Notes under the pieces: model-generated
What the model was told of the DNA's origin: nothing
What the model saw: the letters and a program-made list of their open reading frames with translations, nothing else
The model's database searches: none
Shown: in pieces, positions 24,129 to 34,848 of the stretch
Position numbering within the stretch: position 1 is the stretch's first letter
Layout of the letters: each line of letters opens with the position of its first letter
Translations under genes and position numbers: made by a program
Assembly: GCA_018648805.1 (NCBI GenBank)
Contig: JABGQM010000001.1
Span: forward strand, 6,056 to 70,055
DNA: 64,000 nt
Source: Verrucomicrobiota bacterium
GTDB lineage: Bacteria > Verrucomicrobiota > Kiritimatiellia > UBA8416 > JABMPJ01
Direction of reading: 5' to 3'

Positions 24129-25832
24129 TTATCGCCGCACCAGGCGAATGATATGAACGGCCATCGCCAGAGCGGCAAAAGTGCCCACGGCAGCCATGCC
24201 CTTCACCCCGGCCTTGTTCCACACACTCCATATGCTACCAAAGGTGGCCAATCCCGTGGCCGTGATCATCAGAACGTTCCACTTCACGCGGGCGAACCCG
24301 GTCGGCATGTTGTCGCCGAGCAGGCTGCGCGAGTTCATCATCAGCAGGAACGTGAAGTACGCAATCGGGAGCAACATCATACCAAAGACCGAAGTCGGCA
24401 TGACCAGCCAGACGGCGACATCTTTCCAGAAGAAAGGTCCCAGCACGCCGAGCAACGGGATCATGCTGCCGATACGATACCACTTGCCCGTGGGGGACTT
24501 GCGGAATATCTCGCAGATGGTGAAGCCGTTGATCAGCATCAGGATGATGATACTGGACACCGCCATGCCGAGAACCCCGAAACCAAACACGTACTGAGCA
24601 ACCGTCTGGCCGGTCAACGGGGACAGCGAAGCCGCCAGGTTGAACGCGTTGCGTTTGACCAGCATGGCGGACAAGACCTTCTCCGAGCGCGGCAGCGCGG
24701 CCACCGCGGCCGCCTGGTCCGCGTCGCTCAGCAGGGCGAACGTCTCCGTGCCTATCTCATGCTGCACCCGCTTGGCGGCCAGTGCGTTGTAGCCCTTGAC
24801 CACGTTCCCGGCGGGCTGAACGATCGCTCCGCCGACATCGGGTTCGCCCAGAAGGCCCGGCTCATACTTCGTATGGAATTGAGTGGCGGCCGCAATCACG
24901 ACACAGCCGGTGGCCAGAATGAACGGGATAAAAAGACCGGTCGAGAGGTCGAAAACCGCCAGGCCACGACAGGTCTTGTCCCAGCCCCGCTTGAGCAGGG
25001 AATAGGGCAGCAGGAAGGTCATGTTGATGCCGACCGCTGTGGCCGCGGCGGAGATCATCACGTCGCGCTGCTGGGCCACGATCAGGTTCTGCCAGAAGTC
25101 GCGGTAGTTCGAGGCGGCCAGGAACGGTTCAAAGGTGGCGGCCGGCTGACTGAGCAGCTTGAGATTGGGAATCAGTCCTGCCCCGATCGCGCCGAGGGAG
25201 AGCTTCCCCATCGCGGCCATTTTGACGACCACACCGAAAAAGGAGAGCACGATGGCTGCCACCATGAGCTTGATGATCAGGTTGAAAATCGCAACACCCC
25301 GGCCGCCGCTGTTGTAGGACCACACCATGGCCGTACAGATGACACAGATGACCGCACAGATGATCAGTTTGCCCGCGACATCCGGCATGGCGGCGGCGCC
25401 GAGCAGGTTGGGCAGCAGATTCTGCTGCACCGCAGCCGTCCCCAAGCTGAATTGGGGCAGACACCACACCACATTGGCCATCAACGTCGCCAATGCCCAG
25501 CCCCAGCCGAGTACCGGGTTCACATGCTGGTTGATGGCGTCAAAGGGCCGTTCCCCGGTCGAGAGCGTCACGTAGGCGATAGCGCTGAGCATGATAACGC
25601 CCATAATCATGGCCAGGGGTTGAAGCCAGAGCAGGGCCAATCCGCCCAGGACGCCGAGGAAGAGACTGCTACCCAGCGAGCCGCCGCCCAGCGTAATGGC
25701 ACTCTGCAGCCAGCCCGGACCCGACAACCTGATGAAGGCGCCCACTGTGGCGAGTGGCCCCTTCGTGCGGGCATTGAGAATAAGTTCGCGCTCTCTGCTT
25801 CCGGTATCACCCGTCGTCTCTTTTGAAGCCAT
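24129..25832 (-). CDS. Nramp-related membrane transporter lacking the metal-binding motif
   Basis: A 567-residue protein with about 11 hydrophobic helices. The opening FIRLSGPGWLQSAITLGGGSLGSSLF lines up with the first helix of Nramp divalent-metal transporters, where the usual motif is DPGN; here it is GGGS. The TM6-like segment reads AVGINMTFLLPYSLLKRG in place of the usual MPHN. Aspartate, asparagine and methionine ligands for metal are therefore missing. A hydrophilic insertion of roughly 80 residues (YEPGLLGEPDVGGAIV to PRSEKVLSAMLV) sits before the last helices. The fold assignment is fair, the substrate unknown; the neighbourhood (ThuA, Gfo/Idh/MocA) suggests an organic solute. The ATG at 25832 follows AGGAGA at 7 nt. 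Confidence 0.72.
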   Translation of the reverse strand: MASKETTGDTGSRERELILNARTKGPLATVGAFIRLSGPGWLQSAITLGGGSLGSSLFLGVLGGLALLWLQPLAMIMGVIMLSAIAYVTLSTGERPFDAINQHVNPVLGWGWALATLMANVVWCLPQFSLGTAAVQQNLLPNLLGAAAMPDVAGKLIICAVICVICTAMVWSYNSGGRGVAIFNLIIKLMVAAIVLSFFGVVVKMAAMGKLSLGAIGAGLIPNLKLLSQPAATFEPFLAASNYRDFWQNLIVAQQRDVMISAAATAVGINMTFLLPYSLLKRGWDKTCRGLAVFDLSTGLFIPFILATGCVVIAAATQFHTKYEPGLLGEPDVGGAIVQPAGNVVKGYNALAAKRVQHEIGTETFALLSDADQAAAVAALPRSEKVLSAMLVKRNAFNLAASLSPLTGQTVAQYVFGFGVLGMAVSSIIILMLINGFTICEIFRKSPTGKWYRIGSMIPLLGVLGPFFWKDVAVWLVMPTSVFGMMLLPIAYFTFLLMMNSRSLLGDNMPTGFARVKWNVLMITATGLATFGSIWSVWNKAGVKGMAAVGTFAALAMAVHIIRLVRR

Positions 25833-25845
25833 AGCCACTCTCCTA

Positions 25846-25902
25846 CTCACTGCCCACCGCTCACTCTCCCCCGTCCCACTGCTCACTGCTTACTGCTCAC
25901 TC
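25846..25902. repeat. Heptanucleotide tandem array (GCAGTGA-like)
   Basis: On the minus strand: GAGTGA, then GCAGTAA, GCAGTGA, GCAGTGG, an irregular G-rich unit, then GCGGTGG and GCAGTGA just before the ribosome-binding site of the Nramp-like gene. The TGA stop of ThuA (4) at 25897-25899 is in the first unit. A C-rich tract (CCCCCGTCCC units, 25903-25941) continues upstream inside the ThuA coding end. Confidence 0.8.
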
Positions 25903-26826: not shown

Positions 26827-27029
26827 AGAGCCATCTCTCCCGGGTTGTCGTTTCAATAGGCCCACAGATTAGTGCTTGGGCCTCGTCGGCGCAAGGTCTG
26901 CCGCCCAAAACCCGGAACTGGAGCGTCGGCGCCTTAGACGAGGCGCCTCTGACCGCCAGCCCGCGCCCTTGTGGCTTTCGTATGCAGCTGCTACGATCTG
27001 GCGAACGATTCTGAATGGAGAAGAAGGCT
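26827..27029. promoter_or_regulatory. Divergent promoter region
   Basis: The region lies between ThuA (4) (minus) and dehydrogenase (6) (plus). For the plus gene a plausible sigma-70 pair is TTGTGG (26969-26974), a 17-bp spacer and TACGAT (26992-26997). An inverted repeat GGCGCC (26928-26933) / GGCGCC (26942-26947) sits in the middle and could bind a shared regulator. No minus-strand pair was convincing. Confidence 0.4.
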
Positions 27030-28394
27030 ATGGATGTGAGCCGAAGAGAGTTTGTGCGATCGGTCGCGGCGGCCGGCGCCGGCCTGGCCATGGTGCGGCG
27101 CGCCTTGGCCGATGACGTCGCGACCATCACCGCGCCGGCGGTTGTGAAACAACATGCCGGCGACGACCTGAACGTGGCCGTGATCGGTGTCGGACAGCAG
27201 GGCAAAGGCGCCCTGATCGAGTCCTCCGTGCCCGCCATCCCGGGGATCCGTTACAAGGCGGTCTGCGATATCTGGGACAAGAACCGCAAGGCGGCCGTGG
27301 ACTACCTTAAGCAGTATGGCCATGAGCCCAAGGCCTATGTCGACTACCAGGAACTCCTGGCCAACGAAACCGACCTGGATGCGGTGATCGTGGCCACGCC
27401 GGACTGGATGCACGCCGAACACGCCATGGCGGCCATGGAGGCCGGGCATCATGTCTACTGCGAGAAGGAGATGTCCAACTCGCTCGAAAAGGCCAGGGCC
27501 ATGGTGCAGACTGCGCGACGCACCGGCAAGCTGCTCCAGATCGGTCATCAGCGCCGCAGTAATCCGCGCTACATCCACGCGATCAAGCGCCTGGTTCACG
27601 ATGAGAAGTTGCTCGGCAAGATCACACATGCCAACGCGCAGTGGAACCGCTCCATCGCCGCCGCGCGCGATATGGGCTGCAGCTACGCGGATGTGATGCC
27701 GGCCGAAACGCTGGCCAAATACGGCTACACCTCGATGCAGCAATTCCTCAACTGGCGTTGGTACAAGAAGTATGGCGGCGGCCCGATCGTCGACCTGGGC
27801 TCGCATCAGATCGATCTGTTCGAGTGGGTCTTCGAAGCCACGCCGCGCTCGGTCGTCGCGTCGGGCGGCATCGACTATCACACCCACCACGAGTGGTACG
27901 ACAACGTGCTCTGCATTTATGAATATGAGACCAAGCACGGCATCAGCCGCGCCTTCTACGAGACACTCACGACCAGCTCACACGGCGGCAACTCGGAAGC
28001 CTTCATGGGCGAGAACGGCACCTTGCTGATCTCTGAAGTGGAAGCGCGCGGCAACGCCATCGAGAAAGAGAAACACGCGCCCGACTGGAATATCCTCGTG
28101 CAGAAAGGCCTTCTCAAAGCCGAAGGCCAGAAGATCGTGCAGACCCAAACCAAGAACACGCTGCTGGACGCGCGCGAGAGTCCCGGCCTGCCGTCATGGC
28201 CCCTGCCCATCGAGCTGGCCAAGAAGCCGCACCAGCCCCACATGGAGAACTTCTTCGACGCCATTCGGGGTACCGCCACGCTAAACTGCCCCGGCGAAGT
28301 CGGCTACGCCACCGCCGTGGCCGTCCTTGCCGTCAATGAAGCGGTCCGCACCAACCAGCGCATCACGTTCAAGCCGTCTGACTTCAAGGTGTGA
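27030..28394 (+). CDS. Tat-exported Gfo/Idh/MocA family oxidoreductase (6)
   Basis: A 454-residue protein with the Tat signal MDVSRREFVRSVAAAGAGLA. The Rossmann loop is AVIGVGQQGKGALIE. The motif is YCEKEMSNS: the catalytic lysine is present but the proline of EKP is glutamate. The C-terminal domain has YGGGPIVDLGSHQIDLFEW, with the active-site histidine region. The ATG at 27030 was preferred to the one at 27015 because it places AAGAAGG close upstream and the twin arginines at residues 5-6. It is transcribed away from the other five copies and is followed by a repeat-containing gap before the cytochrome gene, so it may be an independent unit or linked to it by read-through. Confidence 0.87.
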   Translation: MDVSRREFVRSVAAAGAGLAMVRRALADDVATITAPAVVKQHAGDDLNVAVIGVGQQGKGALIESSVPAIPGIRYKAVCDIWDKNRKAAVDYLKQYGHEPKAYVDYQELLANETDLDAVIVATPDWMHAEHAMAAMEAGHHVYCEKEMSNSLEKARAMVQTARRTGKLLQIGHQRRSNPRYIHAIKRLVHDEKLLGKITHANAQWNRSIAAARDMGCSYADVMPAETLAKYGYTSMQQFLNWRWYKKYGGGPIVDLGSHQIDLFEWVFEATPRSVVASGGIDYHTHHEWYDNVLCIYEYETKHGISRAFYETLTTSSHGGNSEAFMGENGTLLISEVEARGNAIEKEKHAPDWNILVQKGLLKAEGQKIVQTQTKNTLLDARESPGLPSWPLPIELAKKPHQPHMENFFDAIRGTATLNCPGEVGYATAVAVLAVNEAVRTNQRITFKPSDFKV

Positions 28395-28450
28395 GTGAAG
28401 GTTTCGGACTTCAGGAGCTTAGTGAGCAGTGCTCAGGTTTTTAGAGAATC

Positions 28451-28592
28451 GAATGTCCAACAGCCAACAAGGAATGTCCAATACCCAAGTGTGCGAGATA
28501 ACGAGAATGGTAAGCCCTTTGGCCTGCCCATCCATACTCCTCGCGCGCTTTCCTTGATCGGTTGGATATTCCTTGTTGGCTGTTGGATATTG
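28451..28592. repeat. TTGGATATT-type inverted repeat (copy 2)
   Basis: Left arm 28451-28481 (GAATGTCCAACAGCCAACAA then GGAATGTCCAA) pairs with right arm 28562-28592 (TTGGATATTCCTTGTTGGCT then GTTGGATATTG) with only three or so mismatches. The loop of about 80 bp has no gene. The words CCAACAGCCAACAAGGAAT recur in altered form at 31632-31757. Confidence 0.8.
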
Positions 28593-28651
28593 AGGAACAC
28601 CGAGCAATGCATATACTCAGAAGTAAGGCGTCAGGGAGAAATCAGAATTTA

Positions 28652-31585
28652 ATGAAGAGACTCATCTACTTAGGCCTGTTGCTCGCCGCCCTGTCGGGCG
28701 CCGACGCCTCGCATGACTGGGATGGCAGCCCGACGCTGCCGGTGCATCGCATTCCGCTCATGGATGAAAACGGCGCTCAGATCCTCGCCGGCTCCGAAGC
28801 GGCCATGCCTATCTCCACAAGGAAAACCTGTATCCAGTGTCACGATTATGACGCCATCGCGCAGGGCTGGCATTTCAGTGCCAGCGGCGACGTGGCCGGC
28901 TGTGCCACCGAGCCGTGGGTGCTGGTCGATGAGAAGTCCGGCACACAGATTCCCCTCTCGAAGCGCGGTGCCAAGGGATGCTGGAGCCCGCAAGATCTGG
29001 GAATGTCGGACTGGGATGTTGTGAAGCAGTTCGGCCGCCATATGCCCGGCGGCGGCCCCGGCGAGGGCGAACACGCACCCCCCGATCCGGAAGCGCGCTG
29101 GACCGTATCGGGCGACCTCGAGATCAACTGCTTTGCCTGTCACAACACCGGTCCACACCAGGATATGACCGAATGGGTCAAGCAGATCGCCCGCGAGAAT
29201 TTCCGATGGGCCGGAACGGCCGCCGCCTGTCTGGGCAGTGTAGAGGGCGTGGCCTCGCGCCTGCCGGCCACATGGAACCCCTCCGACGGGGTCGATCCGG
29301 ACGACCTGGTCTGGCGCGTGCCACCCAGCGTGACCTATCACGCCACCCTCTTCGACCACAAGAACCGCGCCCTGCTCGACCTGGGAAAACCCACCGATGC
29401 GCGCTGCCTGCAGTGTCACGCCGTAACCCGGGTCGGTGAGACCAAACACCATGTCACGGGTGATGTCCACAGCGATTCAGGTATGAGCTGCGTGAGCTGT
29501 CACCGCAACGGTATCGACCACAAGATCGATCGCGGCATCGACGGGCGCCACTCCTGCCGCGGCTGCCATATGGGCGCTACGCACGGCGACACACCCGCCG
29601 GAACCTACGGCGCCCCCGTCCCCGCACATAAGGGACTCCCCCCGGTCCATCTCGATAAACTAGCCTGCACGACTTGTCACTCCGGCATCGCGATCGACCA
29701 TGGACCGGCCGTCGTGCGCACGTCCTGCATTAACCGCCTCGGCATTCACGGACGGGCCCAGTGGATGACCGAAGCCCCGCTCGTGGTTGAGCCGGTCTTC
29801 ATGAAAGATGGCGACGGCCGCATCGCACCACACCGCATGCTGTGGCCCGCCTTCTGGGCACGCCGACAAGGCGATGACCTCGCGCCGATCAAGGCGGAGA
29901 CCGTCATGGAAATGGGGGGTGACATTCTCGACCCCGCCATGGCCGTGGCCAGGATCCTCGCCCTACTCAGCCGCATCAAGGATGGCGACGGCAACCCCTA
30001 TGGCCAGCCCGTATTCGTCAGCCAGGGCGCACTGTACCAGGCGGATGTGGACGGAGGCCTCGACCGCATGACGTATGACGGACCCCCACCGCCGGCCAGC
30101 CTCACCTTCGGCTATATGATCAACGGAACACTGCAACCCATGGCTGAACTTTACGACGCCACCGATATCAACGCCTTCTACTACCAGGACGAGAGCCGCC
30201 AGGCGCATGTCATCAACCTGCTGGCGGCGTTGCGGGAGCTGGCGCCTGAAGGAGCCGATCCGGCCTGGATCCTACAGGGCAAGCGACATATGGTGAAGGA
30301 TGCCACGTATGAGCCCGTCCCGCCCGAGGAGCTTGCAGCGCTCAGGGAGGCCGCGGCGAAGGCAAAAGTCGAGGTGGATGCCCTGGCAGCTAAGCTGGAT
30401 GTGGCGGCCGAAGTCGACGGCACCAAGCAGAAGTTCTACCGCAAGAGCGACAAGACCGAACTCAAGGCCTCCAAGTCCAAGACCCCGGAGCTCTACAAAC
30501 TGAAACTCCTCATGAAGGCGCAGGGCAAAGCCGAAGCCGCGCTGAATGAACTCGAGATCATCGGCGATAAGGCCTACCGCAACACCTTCCAGAAGAACAC
30601 CTCGCGCTACCCGGTGATTGAGGAATTTGCGGCGGCGGGCACCAACGGGTCCGCATGGGTCTGGATCAAGGATGACAAGGTGCTACCTCTCATTCCCGTG
30701 GCTATCAGCGATCTTATTGCGGACACATCCGGTAGCGACACAACCGTGCTGACGGAGCCGCAGGTGGGCATGGTACTGGCGCGGCTCGGAGAGCGTGCGG
30801 TCTATGTCTCCGGCGGCAAACTCTTCAGCCGCCAGGATGACGGGACGCTAGCCGCCTCCGACCACCCCCGTGCCGCACCGGTGGCCTGGCCCATCGGGCA
30901 TGACGTGCGCCCGGCCGCCCAGTCGCTGGGCGCCGCAGCATGCAGCGAGTGCCACAGCGCAGAGGCGCCCTTCCTCTTTGCAGAAGTCACGGCCCAGGGG
31001 CCCCTGACATCCGAGCAGGTCGCCGCGGCGGCCATGGTGAGTTTCATGGGGCTGGATGGTGGATTCAACAGACTGTTCGGCCTGAGCTTCATGGTGCGCC
31101 CCCTCTTCAAGGCCGGCATGCTCGGCCTGGCCCTCATCGCTGCACTCGTTCTGCTGGCCTGGCTGCTGGCGGGCATCCGGAGCTGGAGCCTGCAGAGCGA
31201 CCACCCCGCGCTTGAGCGGACCGCGCTTCTGGGCGGATTCCTCAGCACCGTCCTGCTCGCCCTGACCGGATTTGGCGGCATGCTACAGGGCCACCTGGGC
31301 GGCTACCCGCTCCTGACCCATACGGCCGCGGGAGCCCTCTTTGCGCTCTGCCTCGCCGTTCTGGCTCTGCTCAAGGCCCGGCACCACCTCACCCCCACCG
31401 TTCAAAGCGCCTGTTTCTGGCTGCTCCTCGTATGTGCCGTGGTCTTGATCCTCACTGTACTGGTCGCCATGGTCCCCCTGCTCGATACCCATGCGCAGCA
31501 TGGCGCCCTGGCCCTGCACACGCTGGCCGCTGTCGTTTTTGTGGCAGCCCTGGCGCTTTACGCCTTTATGGCGCGGAGGTCATAG
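28652..31585 (+). CDS. Seven-heme cytochrome c-like protein with C-terminal membrane domain
   Basis: A 977-residue protein. A Sec signal (MKRLIYLGLLLAALSGADAS) precedes six CXXCH motifs at about residues 60, 160, 252, 280, 302 and 339 (CIQCH, CFACH, CLQCH, CVSCH, CRGCH, CTTCH). A seventh, CSECH, is at about 764. Around residues 560-660 a lysine/alanine-rich helical insertion (AAAKAKVEVDALAAKLD) separates heme six from seven. From about residue 800 there are five hydrophobic helices with histidines in GHLGGYPLLTHTAAG and HAQHGALALHTLAAV, which could bind b-type heme. The layout suggests transfer of electrons across the inner membrane to or from periplasmic partners. The ATG at 28652 was chosen for the signal peptide; GGGAG is somewhat distant (about 13 nt). 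No known family with this full layout was recognised. Confidence 0.75.
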   Translation: MKRLIYLGLLLAALSGADASHDWDGSPTLPVHRIPLMDENGAQILAGSEAAMPISTRKTCIQCHDYDAIAQGWHFSASGDVAGCATEPWVLVDEKSGTQIPLSKRGAKGCWSPQDLGMSDWDVVKQFGRHMPGGGPGEGEHAPPDPEARWTVSGDLEINCFACHNTGPHQDMTEWVKQIARENFRWAGTAAACLGSVEGVASRLPATWNPSDGVDPDDLVWRVPPSVTYHATLFDHKNRALLDLGKPTDARCLQCHAVTRVGETKHHVTGDVHSDSGMSCVSCHRNGIDHKIDRGIDGRHSCRGCHMGATHGDTPAGTYGAPVPAHKGLPPVHLDKLACTTCHSGIAIDHGPAVVRTSCINRLGIHGRAQWMTEAPLVVEPVFMKDGDGRIAPHRMLWPAFWARRQGDDLAPIKAETVMEMGGDILDPAMAVARILALLSRIKDGDGNPYGQPVFVSQGALYQADVDGGLDRMTYDGPPPPASLTFGYMINGTLQPMAELYDATDINAFYYQDESRQAHVINLLAALRELAPEGADPAWILQGKRHMVKDATYEPVPPEELAALREAAAKAKVEVDALAAKLDVAAEVDGTKQKFYRKSDKTELKASKSKTPELYKLKLLMKAQGKAEAALNELEIIGDKAYRNTFQKNTSRYPVIEEFAAAGTNGSAWVWIKDDKVLPLIPVAISDLIADTSGSDTTVLTEPQVGMVLARLGERAVYVSGGKLFSRQDDGTLAASDHPRAAPVAWPIGHDVRPAAQSLGAAACSECHSAEAPFLFAEVTAQGPLTSEQVAAAAMVSFMGLDGGFNRLFGLSFMVRPLFKAGMLGLALIAALVLLAWLLAGIRSWSLQSDHPALERTALLGGFLSTVLLALTGFGGMLQGHLGGYPLLTHTAAGALFALCLAVLALLKARHHLTPTVQSACFWLLLVCAVVLILTVLVAMVPLLDTHAQHGALALHTLAAVVFVAALALYAFMARRS

Positions 31586-31631
31586 AGATGGTGGCTAGTC
31601 ATAAAGGGCGACTCCAGTAAGAATTGAACAC

Positions 31632-31757
31632 CCAATATCCAACAACGAATGTCCAATATCCAAGTGTGCGACCAGCGAATGTCAAGTCGAGCAGCAATCC
31701 ATTCACTGAACGCACACACTTGGATATTGGGAGTTCCTTGTTGGATGTTGGATATTG
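31632..31757. repeat. TTGGATATT-type inverted repeat (copy 3)
   Basis: Left arm about 31632-31670 and right arm 31711-31757 pair through CAATATCCAACA, CCAATATCCAAGTGTG and the matching CACACTTGGATATTGG and GTTGGATATTG. One side has about 8 extra bases. The element fills the gap between the cytochrome and ApbE-like genes and leaves no room for a separate gene. Confidence 0.75.
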
Positions 31758-31819
31758 AGATGCACAGGACTGCACCCACCTAAGCGTCATTTCATCAACA
31801 AGACCCGGCAATAGCGAGC

Positions 31820-32599
31820 ATGACCTACACCCACCATCATGAAGCGATGAACGCGCCGTTCGAGATCCACATCGCGGGGAAGGAAGAGAACTACGCACGC
31901 CAGGCCGCGGACGCGATCTTTCGTGAGATCGACCATATCGAGAGCAACCTGAGCCGGTTCAGTGAGCAGAGCGATCTGGCCCGCATCAAACTGCTCGAGC
32001 CGGGGCAATCGCTCAAGGTGAGCCGTGAAACGATGGAGTGCCTGCTCGTCGCGCTGTGGGCCACCCGCGAGACCGACGGCGCCTTCGATGTCACGCTGGG
32101 CCGCGGCATGCAGGACCTGATCCTCGATCCGGATGCACTGAGCCTGCAGGTGAGCGGGAAATCAGGCGCGCTGGCGATCGACCTGGGGGGCATTGGCAAG
32201 GGCTATTCCCTCGACAATACGGCCGCGATTGTTGAAGACTGGGGAATAGAGAACGCGCTGTTGACGGCCGGCCCCAGTACGGCACTGGCCATGGGTCGGC
32301 AGGATGGAGACGCGTGGTCGGTCGGATTGCACGGCCGCCCCGTCAACCTGAGGGAGCAGGCCATCAGCGCCTCGGGCAAGGATATCAAGGGCGCACATGT
32401 TTTGGACCCGCGCACGGGCGATCCCGCGACCGGGCATGAGAAGGCGTGGGCCATCTGCCCGTCGGCCGCACTGGCGGACGCCCTCTCGACCGCGTTCATG
32501 GTGATGGACACCGCGTCCGTCAAAGCGTTTTGTGAATCCCACGAGGGGATCCAGGGACATCTGCTCAGCCGGGATGGCGCGTTCATGTCGTTTGCATGA
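31820..32599 (+). CDS. apbE: ApbE-like FAD:protein FMN transferase
   Basis: A 259-residue protein of the ApbE family, which attaches FMN covalently to Ser/Thr of target proteins. Recognisable parts are EAMNAPFEIHIAG at the N-terminus (usually EAMGTxF), SRFSEQSDLARI, IDLGGIGKGYSLDNTA (about residues 120-135), HVLDPRTGDPATGH (about 195-208) and ALADALSTAFMVM. The magnesium/FAD region normally reading NxGGDI is TAGPSTALAMG here, so activity could be altered. There is no signal peptide or lipobox, so the protein appears cytosolic unless the start is wrong. It follows the multiheme cytochrome and precedes the discoidin-like gene; ApbE next to redox membrane proteins is a known theme of extracytosolic flavinylated electron transfer. 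The target is not identified. Confidence 0.8.
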   Translation: MTYTHHHEAMNAPFEIHIAGKEENYARQAADAIFREIDHIESNLSRFSEQSDLARIKLLEPGQSLKVSRETMECLLVALWATRETDGAFDVTLGRGMQDLILDPDALSLQVSGKSGALAIDLGGIGKGYSLDNTAAIVEDWGIENALLTAGPSTALAMGRQDGDAWSVGLHGRPVNLREQAISASGKDIKGAHVLDPRTGDPATGHEKAWAICPSAALADALSTAFMVMDTASVKAFCESHEGIQGHLLSRDGAFMSFA

Positions 32600-32627
32600 G
32601 AAACCAGAAACAGAAGGAAGATGAAGC

Positions 32628-33284
32628 ATGAAGACAATCACATCAGTAGCCGTGGTCCTGCTGCTTGCAGCCGCGACGAATCTCGTGGCGCAGGGCATGC
32701 TCCCACTCAAACTCGAGCTGCCCAAGCCCATGTTTGTCGGGACACCCAAAACGATCAAATCGGCCAACCTGGAGCCCGCCCGCAAGGGCAAGCCGCGTCC
32801 ACCGGTCATGGTGCCCAAGGGCGTCGAGAACGTGGCCGAGGATATGGAGATCACCAGCAGTGATTCCTATCCCATTATTGGCGACCTCGAGCTGGTCACC
32901 GACGGCGACAAGGAGGGCGCCGACGGTAGCTACGTTGAACTCGGGCCGGGCAAACAGTATGTCCAGATCGACCTCGAAGAGACACGCCAGATCTACGCCA
33001 TCGTGATCTGGCATTTCCACAGCCAGGCACGCGTCTACAAGGATGTCGTCGTGCAGCTCGCGGACGATGAGGACTTCATTACCAACGTCCGTACCGTCTT
33101 CAACAACGACCACGACAACTCAGCCGGTTTCGGCATCGGCAAGGACAAGGAGTACATCGAGACGTTCGCGGGCCGTCCGCTGGCGGTCAAGGGCCTCAAA
33201 GCCCAGTATGTCCGGCTCTACAGCAACGGCAGCACCTCCAGTGAGATGAACCACTACGTTGAAGTCGAAGTCTACGGAAAGTAA
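32628..33284 (+). CDS. Secreted discoidin (F5/8 type C)-like protein
   Basis: A 218-residue protein with a Sec signal (MKTITSVAVVLLLAAATNLVAQ), a proline-rich linker (RKGKPRPPVMVPKGV) and a discoidin-type beta domain: PIIGDLELVTDGDKEGADGS, YVQIDLEETRQIYAIVIWHF, VYKDVVVQLADDEDF and AQYVRLYSNGSTSSEMNHYV. The small all-beta domain resembles carbohydrate- or surface-binding F5/8C modules, and the family is frequent in PVC bacteria. Its role beside a multiheme cytochrome and ApbE is unknown; it may be a periplasmic or surface binding partner. It starts 28 nt after apbE and ends 10 nt before the glycosyltransferase. Confidence 0.78.
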   Translation: MKTITSVAVVLLLAAATNLVAQGMLPLKLELPKPMFVGTPKTIKSANLEPARKGKPRPPVMVPKGVENVAEDMEITSSDSYPIIGDLELVTDGDKEGADGSYVELGPGKQYVQIDLEETRQIYAIVIWHFHSQARVYKDVVVQLADDEDFITNVRTVFNNDHDNSAGFGIGKDKEYIETFAGRPLAVKGLKAQYVRLYSNGSTSSEMNHYVEVEVYGK

Positions 33285-33294
33285 GCATCGGTCG

Positions 33295-34848
33295 ATGCGC
33301 AGCTTCATCTACCGCAGCGGGTTCGCCCTGATCGTGCTGGTCGCGCTCTTCGTTCGTGTCGTGCAGCTCGATCAACGCGTGCTGCACAACGACGAAGCCA
33401 ACCAGATCGTGCGGGCCGGCCGTCTGCTCGAGGGAGACAGCTACCGCTACGACCCCGAAGAGCATCACGGTCCCACCCTCTACTACCTCGCCCTGCCGCT
33501 GGCCTGGCTGACCGCCGGCCGGGAGTTTGCGGCCACCTCCGAATGGACCTATCGCCTCCTGCCGGCCCTCTGTGGTGTTGGGGTGCTCCTGCTCCTGCTC
33601 CTGCTCTGGGACGGCATCGGCCGCGGGGCCGTCCTGGCTGCCGCGGCCCTGATGGCAGCCTCGCCTGCCATGGTCTACTACAGCCGCTTCTTCATCCAGG
33701 AAACCCTCCTGCTCCTCTTCACGGTCGGGGCCATTACCTGCGGCTGGCACTATTGCAGCCGCCGCACCGCCCCGCGCGCCATCGCCACCGGCGTCTTCCT
33801 GGGGTTGATGCATGCTACCAAGGAGACCTGTATCATCGCCTACGCCTGCATGGGCGCGGCCCTGCTGATCGTGGTGGCCTTCAAGGTGAAGTCGGGGCTG
33901 ACCCTTGATCTTAAGCTCACGTGCCGCCATGCACTCTACATGGCCCTCGCCGCACTGGGTGTGGCATCCATCCTATTCTCATCGTTTGGTGTGAACCCCG
34001 CCGGCATCTGGCACTCCTTCGCTACCTACCTCGGCTATGTCCACAAGGGATTGGGTGAGAACAGCGACCACGTCCACCCCTTCACCTTCTACCTTCGGAT
34101 GCTGATCGGCCAGCGCAGCGGCGGCCTCTTCTGGAGCGAATGGGTCATCATGCTGCCCGGCGCCATCGGCATGTTGCTCGTGGCCACCTCCTCGCGGTTG
34201 ATCAAACAGGTTGACCGCGGTCTCGGGCGCTTTCTGGTGTTCTATACGCTACTCATGACGCTGGCCTACTCCCTGATCCCTTACAAGACGCCGTGGTGCA
34301 TGCTCTCCTTCCTGCATGGCTGGATCATCCTGGCCGGCATCGGTATCACGGGCCTCTTCAACGTCTCGCGCCACCCCCTGGCGCGAATCATCGTCCTGGT
34401 CCTTCTCGCCGGCGGTATGGGGTTCCTGGCCCGCCAGGTGCAGCGGACCAGTTTCCGCTACGGCGCCGACGCGCGCAACCCGTACGCCTACTCGCACACG
34501 GTGTCGGATCATCTCAATCTGGTGCAGCGCATCAACGATGTGACCGCGCTGCAGGCCGCCGGCCGGCAGACCCCCATCGCCGTGGTGACCAACCCGGAAG
34601 ACGCCTGGCCGCTACCGTGGTACCTTCGCGCCTACCCCAACACCGGCTACTGGAACGATGTGGCGAGCCTGCCGGCGCCCTTCGCGCCCGCCCTGATCGT
34701 GGCCTCGCTGGACCGGGAAGCAGAAGTCGCCACGCTGACCGGTGAGCGCTATATCTCGGAATACTGGGGCCTGCGTAATGAAGTGCTCCTGGCCCTCTAT
34801 ATCCGGCGTGACCTGTGGGACCGCTTCATGGAATCCCGCCAGCCGTAG
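33295..34848 (+). CDS. Agl23-type (TIGR03663) polytopic glycosyltransferase-like protein
   Basis: A 517-residue membrane protein with about 10-12 hydrophobic segments starting MRSFIYRSGFALIVLVALFV. The first periplasmic loop HNDEANQIVRAGRLLEGDS has the acidic motif of GT39-like glycosyltransferases, and the repeated HATKET, PYKTPWCML and RQVQRTSFRYGADARNPYAY segments match the TIGR03663 family (annotated as flippase activity-associated Agl23). Such enzymes move sugars from lipid carriers to proteins or glycans. The ATG at 33295 was preferred to an upstream TTG that overlaps the discoidin gene. It converges on a GT2 gene 3 nt away, the usual kind of partner for making lipid-linked sugar. Confidence 0.8.
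   Translation: MRSFIYRSGFALIVLVALFVRVVQLDQRVLHNDEANQIVRAGRLLEGDSYRYDPEEHHGPTLYYLALPLAWLTAGREFAATSEWTYRLLPALCGVGVLLLLLLLWDGIGRGAVLAAAALMAASPAMVYYSRFFIQETLLLLFTVGAITCGWHYCSRRTAPRAIATGVFLGLMHATKETCIIAYACMGAALLIVVAFKVKSGLTLDLKLTCRHALYMALAALGVASILFSSFGVNPAGIWHSFATYLGYVHKGLGENSDHVHPFTFYLRMLIGQRSGGLFWSEWVIMLPGAIGMLLVATSSRLIKQVDRGLGRFLVFYTLLMTLAYSLIPYKTPWCMLSFLHGWIILAGIGITGLFNVSRHPLARIIVLVLLAGGMGFLARQVQRTSFRYGADARNPYAYSHTVSDHLNLVQRINDVTALQAAGRQTPIAVVTNPEDAWPLPWYLRAYPNTGYWNDVASLPAPFAPALIVASLDREAEVATLTGERYISEYWGLRNEVLLALYIRRDLWDRFMESRQP

Follow-up and report, generated by a model that had tools for sequence, protein, structure and literature searches.

The stretch analysed here (hereafter the window) is 64,000 nucleotides of contig JABGQM010000001.1 from a Verrucomicrobiota bacterium of the class Kiritimatiellia, and it carries a conserved unit of five genes, all on the forward strand and running from 27015 to 34848, in which an exported oxidoreductase of the Gfo/Idh/MocA family is encoded next to a membrane cytochrome with seven heme-binding motifs. 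The unit consists of the Gfo enzyme with a twin-arginine translocation (Tat) type signal (P0005, 27015..28394; PF01408, 5.1e-21), the heptaheme cytochrome (P0001, 977 amino acids (aa), 28652..31585), a variant of the flavin transferase ApbE without signal peptide (P0002, 31820..32599), a secreted discoidin-like protein (P0003, 32628..33284) and an Agl23-like membrane glycosyltransferase (P0004, 33259..34848, with an ATG at 33295). On balance, we favour the view that this module is a periplasmic sugar dehydrogenase with exchangeable electron modules on the quinone side. It is, to our knowledge, an open question how exported Gfo/Idh/MocA enzymes, of which this phylum has many, regenerate the cofactor that they carry in a compartment without an NAD(P) pool; with this module, one of them would have an electron exit that is fixed genetically and has been swapped several times. 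The module also defines an ApbE subfamily without known target. The gene set was not found described in the open literature that we searched.

Conservation of the unit and exchange of its putative redox partner

We compared 25 loci that encode the cytochrome, namely the window, sets of 12 and 10 regions, and the loci L027 and L013. In 20 of the 25, the gene immediately before the cytochrome is a Gfo ortholog (L013 starts too close to its contig end to show one), and the ApbE variant comes after the cytochrome in 20 of the 25, being absent from L084 and L085, with the contigs of L037, L027 and L013 ending too early to show it. Cytochrome, ApbE and discoidin stand in this order in 15 loci, with intervening genes in some of them (three in L041), and in 10 loci Agl23 comes next too. 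The initial annotation had proposed these three genes as a module and had named two observations that would speak against it: an order kept in no relative, and a cytochrome that always occurs without dehydrogenases. Neither was made, since 14 relative loci have the order and the cytochrome does go together with a dehydrogenase. The unit extends beyond the trio, from Gfo to Agl23.

The association with Gfo also holds at the level of whole genomes. Among 144 relatives, the cytochrome is present in 13, and all 13 carry the specific Gfo; likewise, of the 20 genomes that match the cytochrome strongly (E < 1e-100), 19 carry Gfo at E <= 1e-90, eight weaker cytochrome matches (E 1e-5 to 1e-3) having been discarded as heme-motif matches. 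The suggestion that the cytochrome serves the exported dehydrogenases thus holds in part, since it is tied to one specific dehydrogenase and not to the exported ones generally. Gfo, the ApbE variant and the discoidin protein (called present at E <= 1e-90, 1e-20 and 1e-20, respectively) occur in 27 of the 144 genomes each, with 25 genomes common to every pair (hypergeometric p of 1.9e-23 for pairwise co-occurrence, a value that ignores relatedness). Three genomes (G345, G348 and G390) have Gfo not beside the cytochrome but elsewhere, and in G390 and G345 (L081, L082) we noted by eye that two small ExbB/ExbD-like genes precede the cytochrome. Four relatives of the same genus as the window (G001-G004) are without the module, and a metagenome-assembled Lentisphaeria bacterium (UBA12247, L027) encodes a partial Gfo 89% identical and a cytochrome 67% identical to those of the window. 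One genome (G010) holds two Gfo-cytochrome-ApbE units on different contigs (L039, L040).

Where the cytochrome is missing, another putative redox protein is usually found next to Gfo. A DoxX/MauE-like protein with four transmembrane segments (4-TM) adjoins Gfo in cytochrome-free genomes; it was detected in 10 of the 144 relatives, all of them among the 27 with Gfo and none with the cytochrome. One of these (G095) belongs to genus g59; all other relatives of that genus with the module have the cytochrome form. Only four Gfo genomes of the 144 have neither form (G030, G037, G110 and G129): in G037 and G110 the cluster includes a YceI protein, G030 (L108) has an Nqr-like operon directly after Gfo, and no partner was seen on the short contig of G129. 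In the Nqr-like operon, one gene (L108:12527-13735) encodes a fusion of an NqrC-like protein, with FMN_bind at 1.8e-10 and the motif DGITGAS, to a discoidin domain like P0003, which is 36% identical to the stand-alone copy (E 1e-38). The same exchange is seen across the phylum, where Gfo is present in 64 of 387 genomes, accompanied by the cytochrome in 19, by the DoxX-like protein in 39 (7 inside the class and 32 outside), by YceI in one and by none of these in five. Outside the class, the DoxX-like gene lies directly upstream of Gfo, with the discoidin gene in the locus, in 32 of 37 Gfo loci, and 16 of the 32 read DoxX, Gfo, discoidin, Agl23 and ApbE in one direction, with discoidin displaced in one locus. 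Oxygen or aerobic respiration was considered as the factor behind the swap and finds no support within the class, where heme-copper oxidases do not separate the two forms.

Anatomy of the encoded proteins

The initial annotation had described a protein with seven CXXCH motifs, five C-terminal helices and a Lys/Ala-rich insertion between hemes 6 and 7, followed by an ApbE-like protein with an altered GGD region and no signal peptide and by a secreted discoidin protein, and it had remarked that a flavin target was missing; each of these descriptions held up in our analysis. The CXXCH motifs of P0001 lie at aa 60, 160, 252, 280, 302, 339 and 764, and in 2000 composition-preserving shuffles the mean number of such motifs was 0.0175 and the maximum 1. 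Hemes 1-6, in a periplasmic domain (aa 60-347, 28829..29692), are invariant in all 25 cytochromes, and heme 7 (CSECH, 30941..30955) in all 22 sequences that reach that far. Exactly seven further His residues are invariant, His32, 74, 273, 290, 326 and 333 in 25/25 and His750, before the heme 7 motif, in 23/23; each heme could thus have one of them, the number that bis-His ligation would require, which makes these residues candidate heme ligands. The C-terminal membrane domain (31121..31558), with five hydrophobic segments at aa 824-969, keeps His890 in 18 of 19 sequences and His956 in 19 of 19. It resembles cytochrome b561: in two relatives the five-helix tail is a separate gene with weak PF01292 matches (7.1e-5 and 1.1e-3), although a profile search with the window P0001 itself gave no PF01292 match. 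In a sequence search of the PDB with the cytochrome, nitrite reductases were matched at the level of the heme motif only, and the other similarities were due to chance.

The Lys/Ala-rich segment (aa about 556-665, 30317..30646; 16 Lys and 20 Ala in 110 residues) was alignable only in the window, L036 and L027 in an alignment of 15 cytochromes, and it sits in a linker whose length between hemes 6 and 7 ranges from 89 to 441 aa in 22 cytochromes. As judged from these alignments, it is a lineage-specific lengthening of a variable linker and no functional hallmark of the family. Its predicted fold is a helix, a beta-hairpin and a helix, with a predicted local distance difference test score (pLDDT) of about 60-76, the rest of the model being poor.

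The closest known architecture is that of CbcL from Geobacter sulfurreducens, an inner-membrane quinone oxidoreductase which, in the part of its description consulted, has nine c hemes, six helices and two b hemes (PMC9129911). P0001 shares with CbcL a periplasmic multi-CXXCH domain with bis-His ligation, predicted in the case of P0001, joined to a b-type membrane domain, but it has seven hemes, five helices and two conserved membrane His, and, unlike the window module, CbcL is given no ApbE or Gfo partner in that part of the source. Since neither its helix count nor its heme count agrees, P0001 cannot be filed as CbcL.

The second protein of the original trio departs from its family in several ways. 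P0002 matches PF02424 with 136.5 bits (cut-off 25.6), far from the three other ApbEs of the genome (259.6-288.2 bits), and scores 59.3 bits against the 498 of the NCBIfam ApbE equivalog, of which it is not a member. Like the FAD:protein FMN transferase ApbE, it has the Ser-His-Asp triad and the following Thr, which are kept in all 54 variant ApbEs (34 plus 20 more); unlike it, P0002 has no hydrophobic N-terminus, reads AGPST in place of GGD or GGN, and has lost eight residues between the catalytic Ser and His. In all 54 variants Ser takes the place of the Asp or Asn of this motif, and the catalytic Ser is separated from the His by a spacing of 8 rather than 16, the hairpin before the catalytic His, present in the other ApbEs of the same genome, being lost. 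As the set was gathered by similarity to P0002, such shared features are partly there by construction, but the uniform spacing and the Ser are still noteworthy. The triad in P0002 was placed by our own alignment to the published residues, without the V. cholerae sequence, and the triad is as given in the part of the source consulted (PMC12052999). Judged by this anatomy, P0002 and its relatives are a distinct ApbE subfamily. A survey of flavinylation removed, according to the part of it consulted, genes without signal peptide or lipidation site (PMC8238504), so a signal-less subfamily would have been excluded there.

In the Gfo enzyme the EK and GGGPxxDxGxH motifs align with those of the solved DgpA, a Rossmann domain is present, and the dehydrogenase motifs are intact; unlike DgpA and other Gfo/Idh/MocA sugar oxidoreductases, P0005 is predicted to be exported by Tat and is genetically tied to membrane redox partners. 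The motif RRx[FL] occurs within the first 40 aa in 28 of 34 Gfo sequences, that of the window included. The six exceptions all belong to genus g59 and have single-Arg forms (NRxxF, KRxxF), so that use of Tat is uncertain there. In the same genus the module (L043, L044, L045) adjoins xylose isomerase-, xylulokinase- and sugar symporter-like genes, as seen by eye, which could hint at the substrate. Against the profile of Glycoside 3-dehydrogenase BT_2158 (NF058561), P0005 scores 93.4 bits, below the curated 750. Of the remaining two proteins, P0003 has an N-terminus resembling a signal peptide and falls just short of the curated cut-offs for F5/8 type C (26.5 vs 27.8; 24.3 vs 28.2), and P0004 matches TIGR03663 (Agl23) with 171.3 bits against a cut-off of 126.25.

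Probable ApbE target, proposed electron route and rival explanations

Which protein the ApbE variant acts on can be narrowed from the company that it keeps. The cytochrome was considered and rejected, as none of its 25 sequences has a flavinylation motif and ApbE persists where the cytochrome is replaced; since ApbE accompanies Gfo, discoidin and Agl23 even then, it probably does not serve to mature the cytochrome. Another flavin site that was tried is SNGST at position 200 of the discoidin protein, which fits a loose motif; it is present in the window and 9 of 25 relatives but is not kept in the NqrC fusion, and it was dismissed as unproven. ApbE is signal-less and follows Gfo with any redox partner, and Gfo alone is of the Tat type, which exports pre-folded proteins, so Gfo is the likeliest target, with the near-invariant Ser182 (34/34) and Thr320 (33/34) as no more than candidate sites of modification. 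A signal-less flavin transferase has a precedent in the cytosolic ApbE of Klebsiella pneumoniae, which, in the part of the source consulted, acts on a soluble fumarate reductase that carries the motif (PMC12052999), whereas the likely target of P0002 is exported and motif-less. More specifically, although we consider it doubtful, the variant could be a cytosolic nucleotide-transferase of new specificity that covalently fixes flavin mononucleotide (FMN) or a nicotinamide nucleotide on Gfo, at a non-canonical site and before Tat export. If so, Gfo would be a covalently cofactored member of its fold, and a hydride enzyme would deliver electrons straight to hemes or quinones in the periplasm.

We hypothesise that Gfo takes up its NAD(P) while folding in the cytosol, exits via Tat and then acts in the periplasm, where it oxidises a hydroxyl group of a sugar or glycan, and that its bound cofactor would be reoxidised there as electrons pass to a membrane partner and then to the quinone pool. 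The partner in the window would be the cytochrome, with seven bis-His c hemes followed by a membrane domain that probably holds one b heme; the DoxX/MauE-like protein would take this place in most relatives, and an Nqr-like complex or YceI in a few. Substrate binding or docking could be the part of the discoidin protein. The ApbE variant would work in the cytosol and most likely mature Gfo there, ahead of its export, perhaps through attachment of a flavin able to convert hydride to single electrons. The genome encodes a cytochrome c assembly protein, which is consistent with this route.

Several findings weigh against it. No Gfo is present in 3 of the 25 cytochrome loci (L081, L082 and L085), L083 has a different Gfo-like protein (PF01408, 1.3e-7), and one genome (G146) carries the cytochrome but no such Gfo. 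The pattern D-x-x-[ST]-G-A-[ST], which covers the canonical ApbE target motif DxxSGA[ST], was found in none of four partner families of the cluster (0/25, 0/26, 0/23 and 0/31). Structure models of the cytochrome (one relative as alignment; mean pLDDT 36.9) and of Gfo (window paralogs and L027 as alignment; 43.5) were too poor to use. Profile matches of the 4-TM partner are weak (best E 1.2e-6; DoxX in 9/18, MauE in 10/18 and DoxD in 1/18), and a partner is missing from five of the Gfo loci outside the class. Moreover, the partner types fall in a few clades of the Gfo tree, which suggests few replacement events, and heme-copper oxidase genes do not set the two forms apart within the class, being present in 8 of 21 genomes with the cytochrome and 3 of 10 with the DoxX-like protein.

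The same genes could also be read in other ways. Gfo may act on a polyprenyl-linked or cell-surface sugar transferred by the Agl23-like GT-C enzyme, by analogy with DprE1/DprE2 and the arabinosyltransferases. Agl23 adjoins ApbE or discoidin in many clusters, and YceI, a polyisoprenoid-binding fold, has the partner place in two genomes; yet the f42 loci L047 and L077-L080 have no Agl23 close by (L077 and L080 end soon after discoidin), and the window Gfo is surrounded by a ThuA gene and several further Gfo genes of the Tat type, a setting like that of sugar catabolism, so that we regard such tailoring of surface glycans as rather unlikely. Solved Gfo relatives include the glucose-fructose oxidoreductase GFOR (1ofg) and the alpha-N-acetylgalactosaminidase 2ixa, and a redox-neutral enzyme of GFOR or GH109 type, with the bound cofactor oxidised and reduced in each turnover, would make the cytochrome an unrelated neighbour. 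The tight co-inheritance of Gfo with four different redox-type partners makes this very unlikely. Finally, electrons could flow in reverse, from quinol via the cytochrome or the DoxX-like protein to Gfo, which would then reduce a periplasmic keto sugar or similar. Gfo enzymes are reversible, and the sequence gives no direction. We nevertheless consider reverse flow improbable, as genomes outside the class that combine the DoxX-like protein with Gfo are rich in heme-copper oxidases (30/32, and 0/1 for the cytochrome genome) and so have an electron sink, which is weak evidence; on the other side, CbcL sends electrons outward from the quinone, as stated in the part of the source consulted (PMC9129911).

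Flanking elements and neighbouring genes

The cytochrome gene of the window is flanked on both sides by copies of a dispersed palindromic intergenic element, to which no strand is assigned, one at 28452..28591 with arms of 30 nucleotides and the other at 31627..31756 with arms of 42 nucleotides. They enlarge the gaps around the gene to 257 and 234 base pairs, whereas these gaps are near zero in many relatives. The 20-base core of the element has 66 matches in the genome with at most two mismatches, against 0 for a reversed control. A search with a library of defence systems gave no match. Nqr/Rnf-like flavinylation systems, of which one module variant (L108) uses an operon, are not part of the window cluster, which has no Nqr subunit; the four FMN_bind genes of the genome lie on other contigs. 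An Nramp-like transporter gene (24129-25886, opposite strand) lies two genes upstream of Gfo in the window, and in G110 such a gene (L087:10791-12599) is directly upstream of Gfo.

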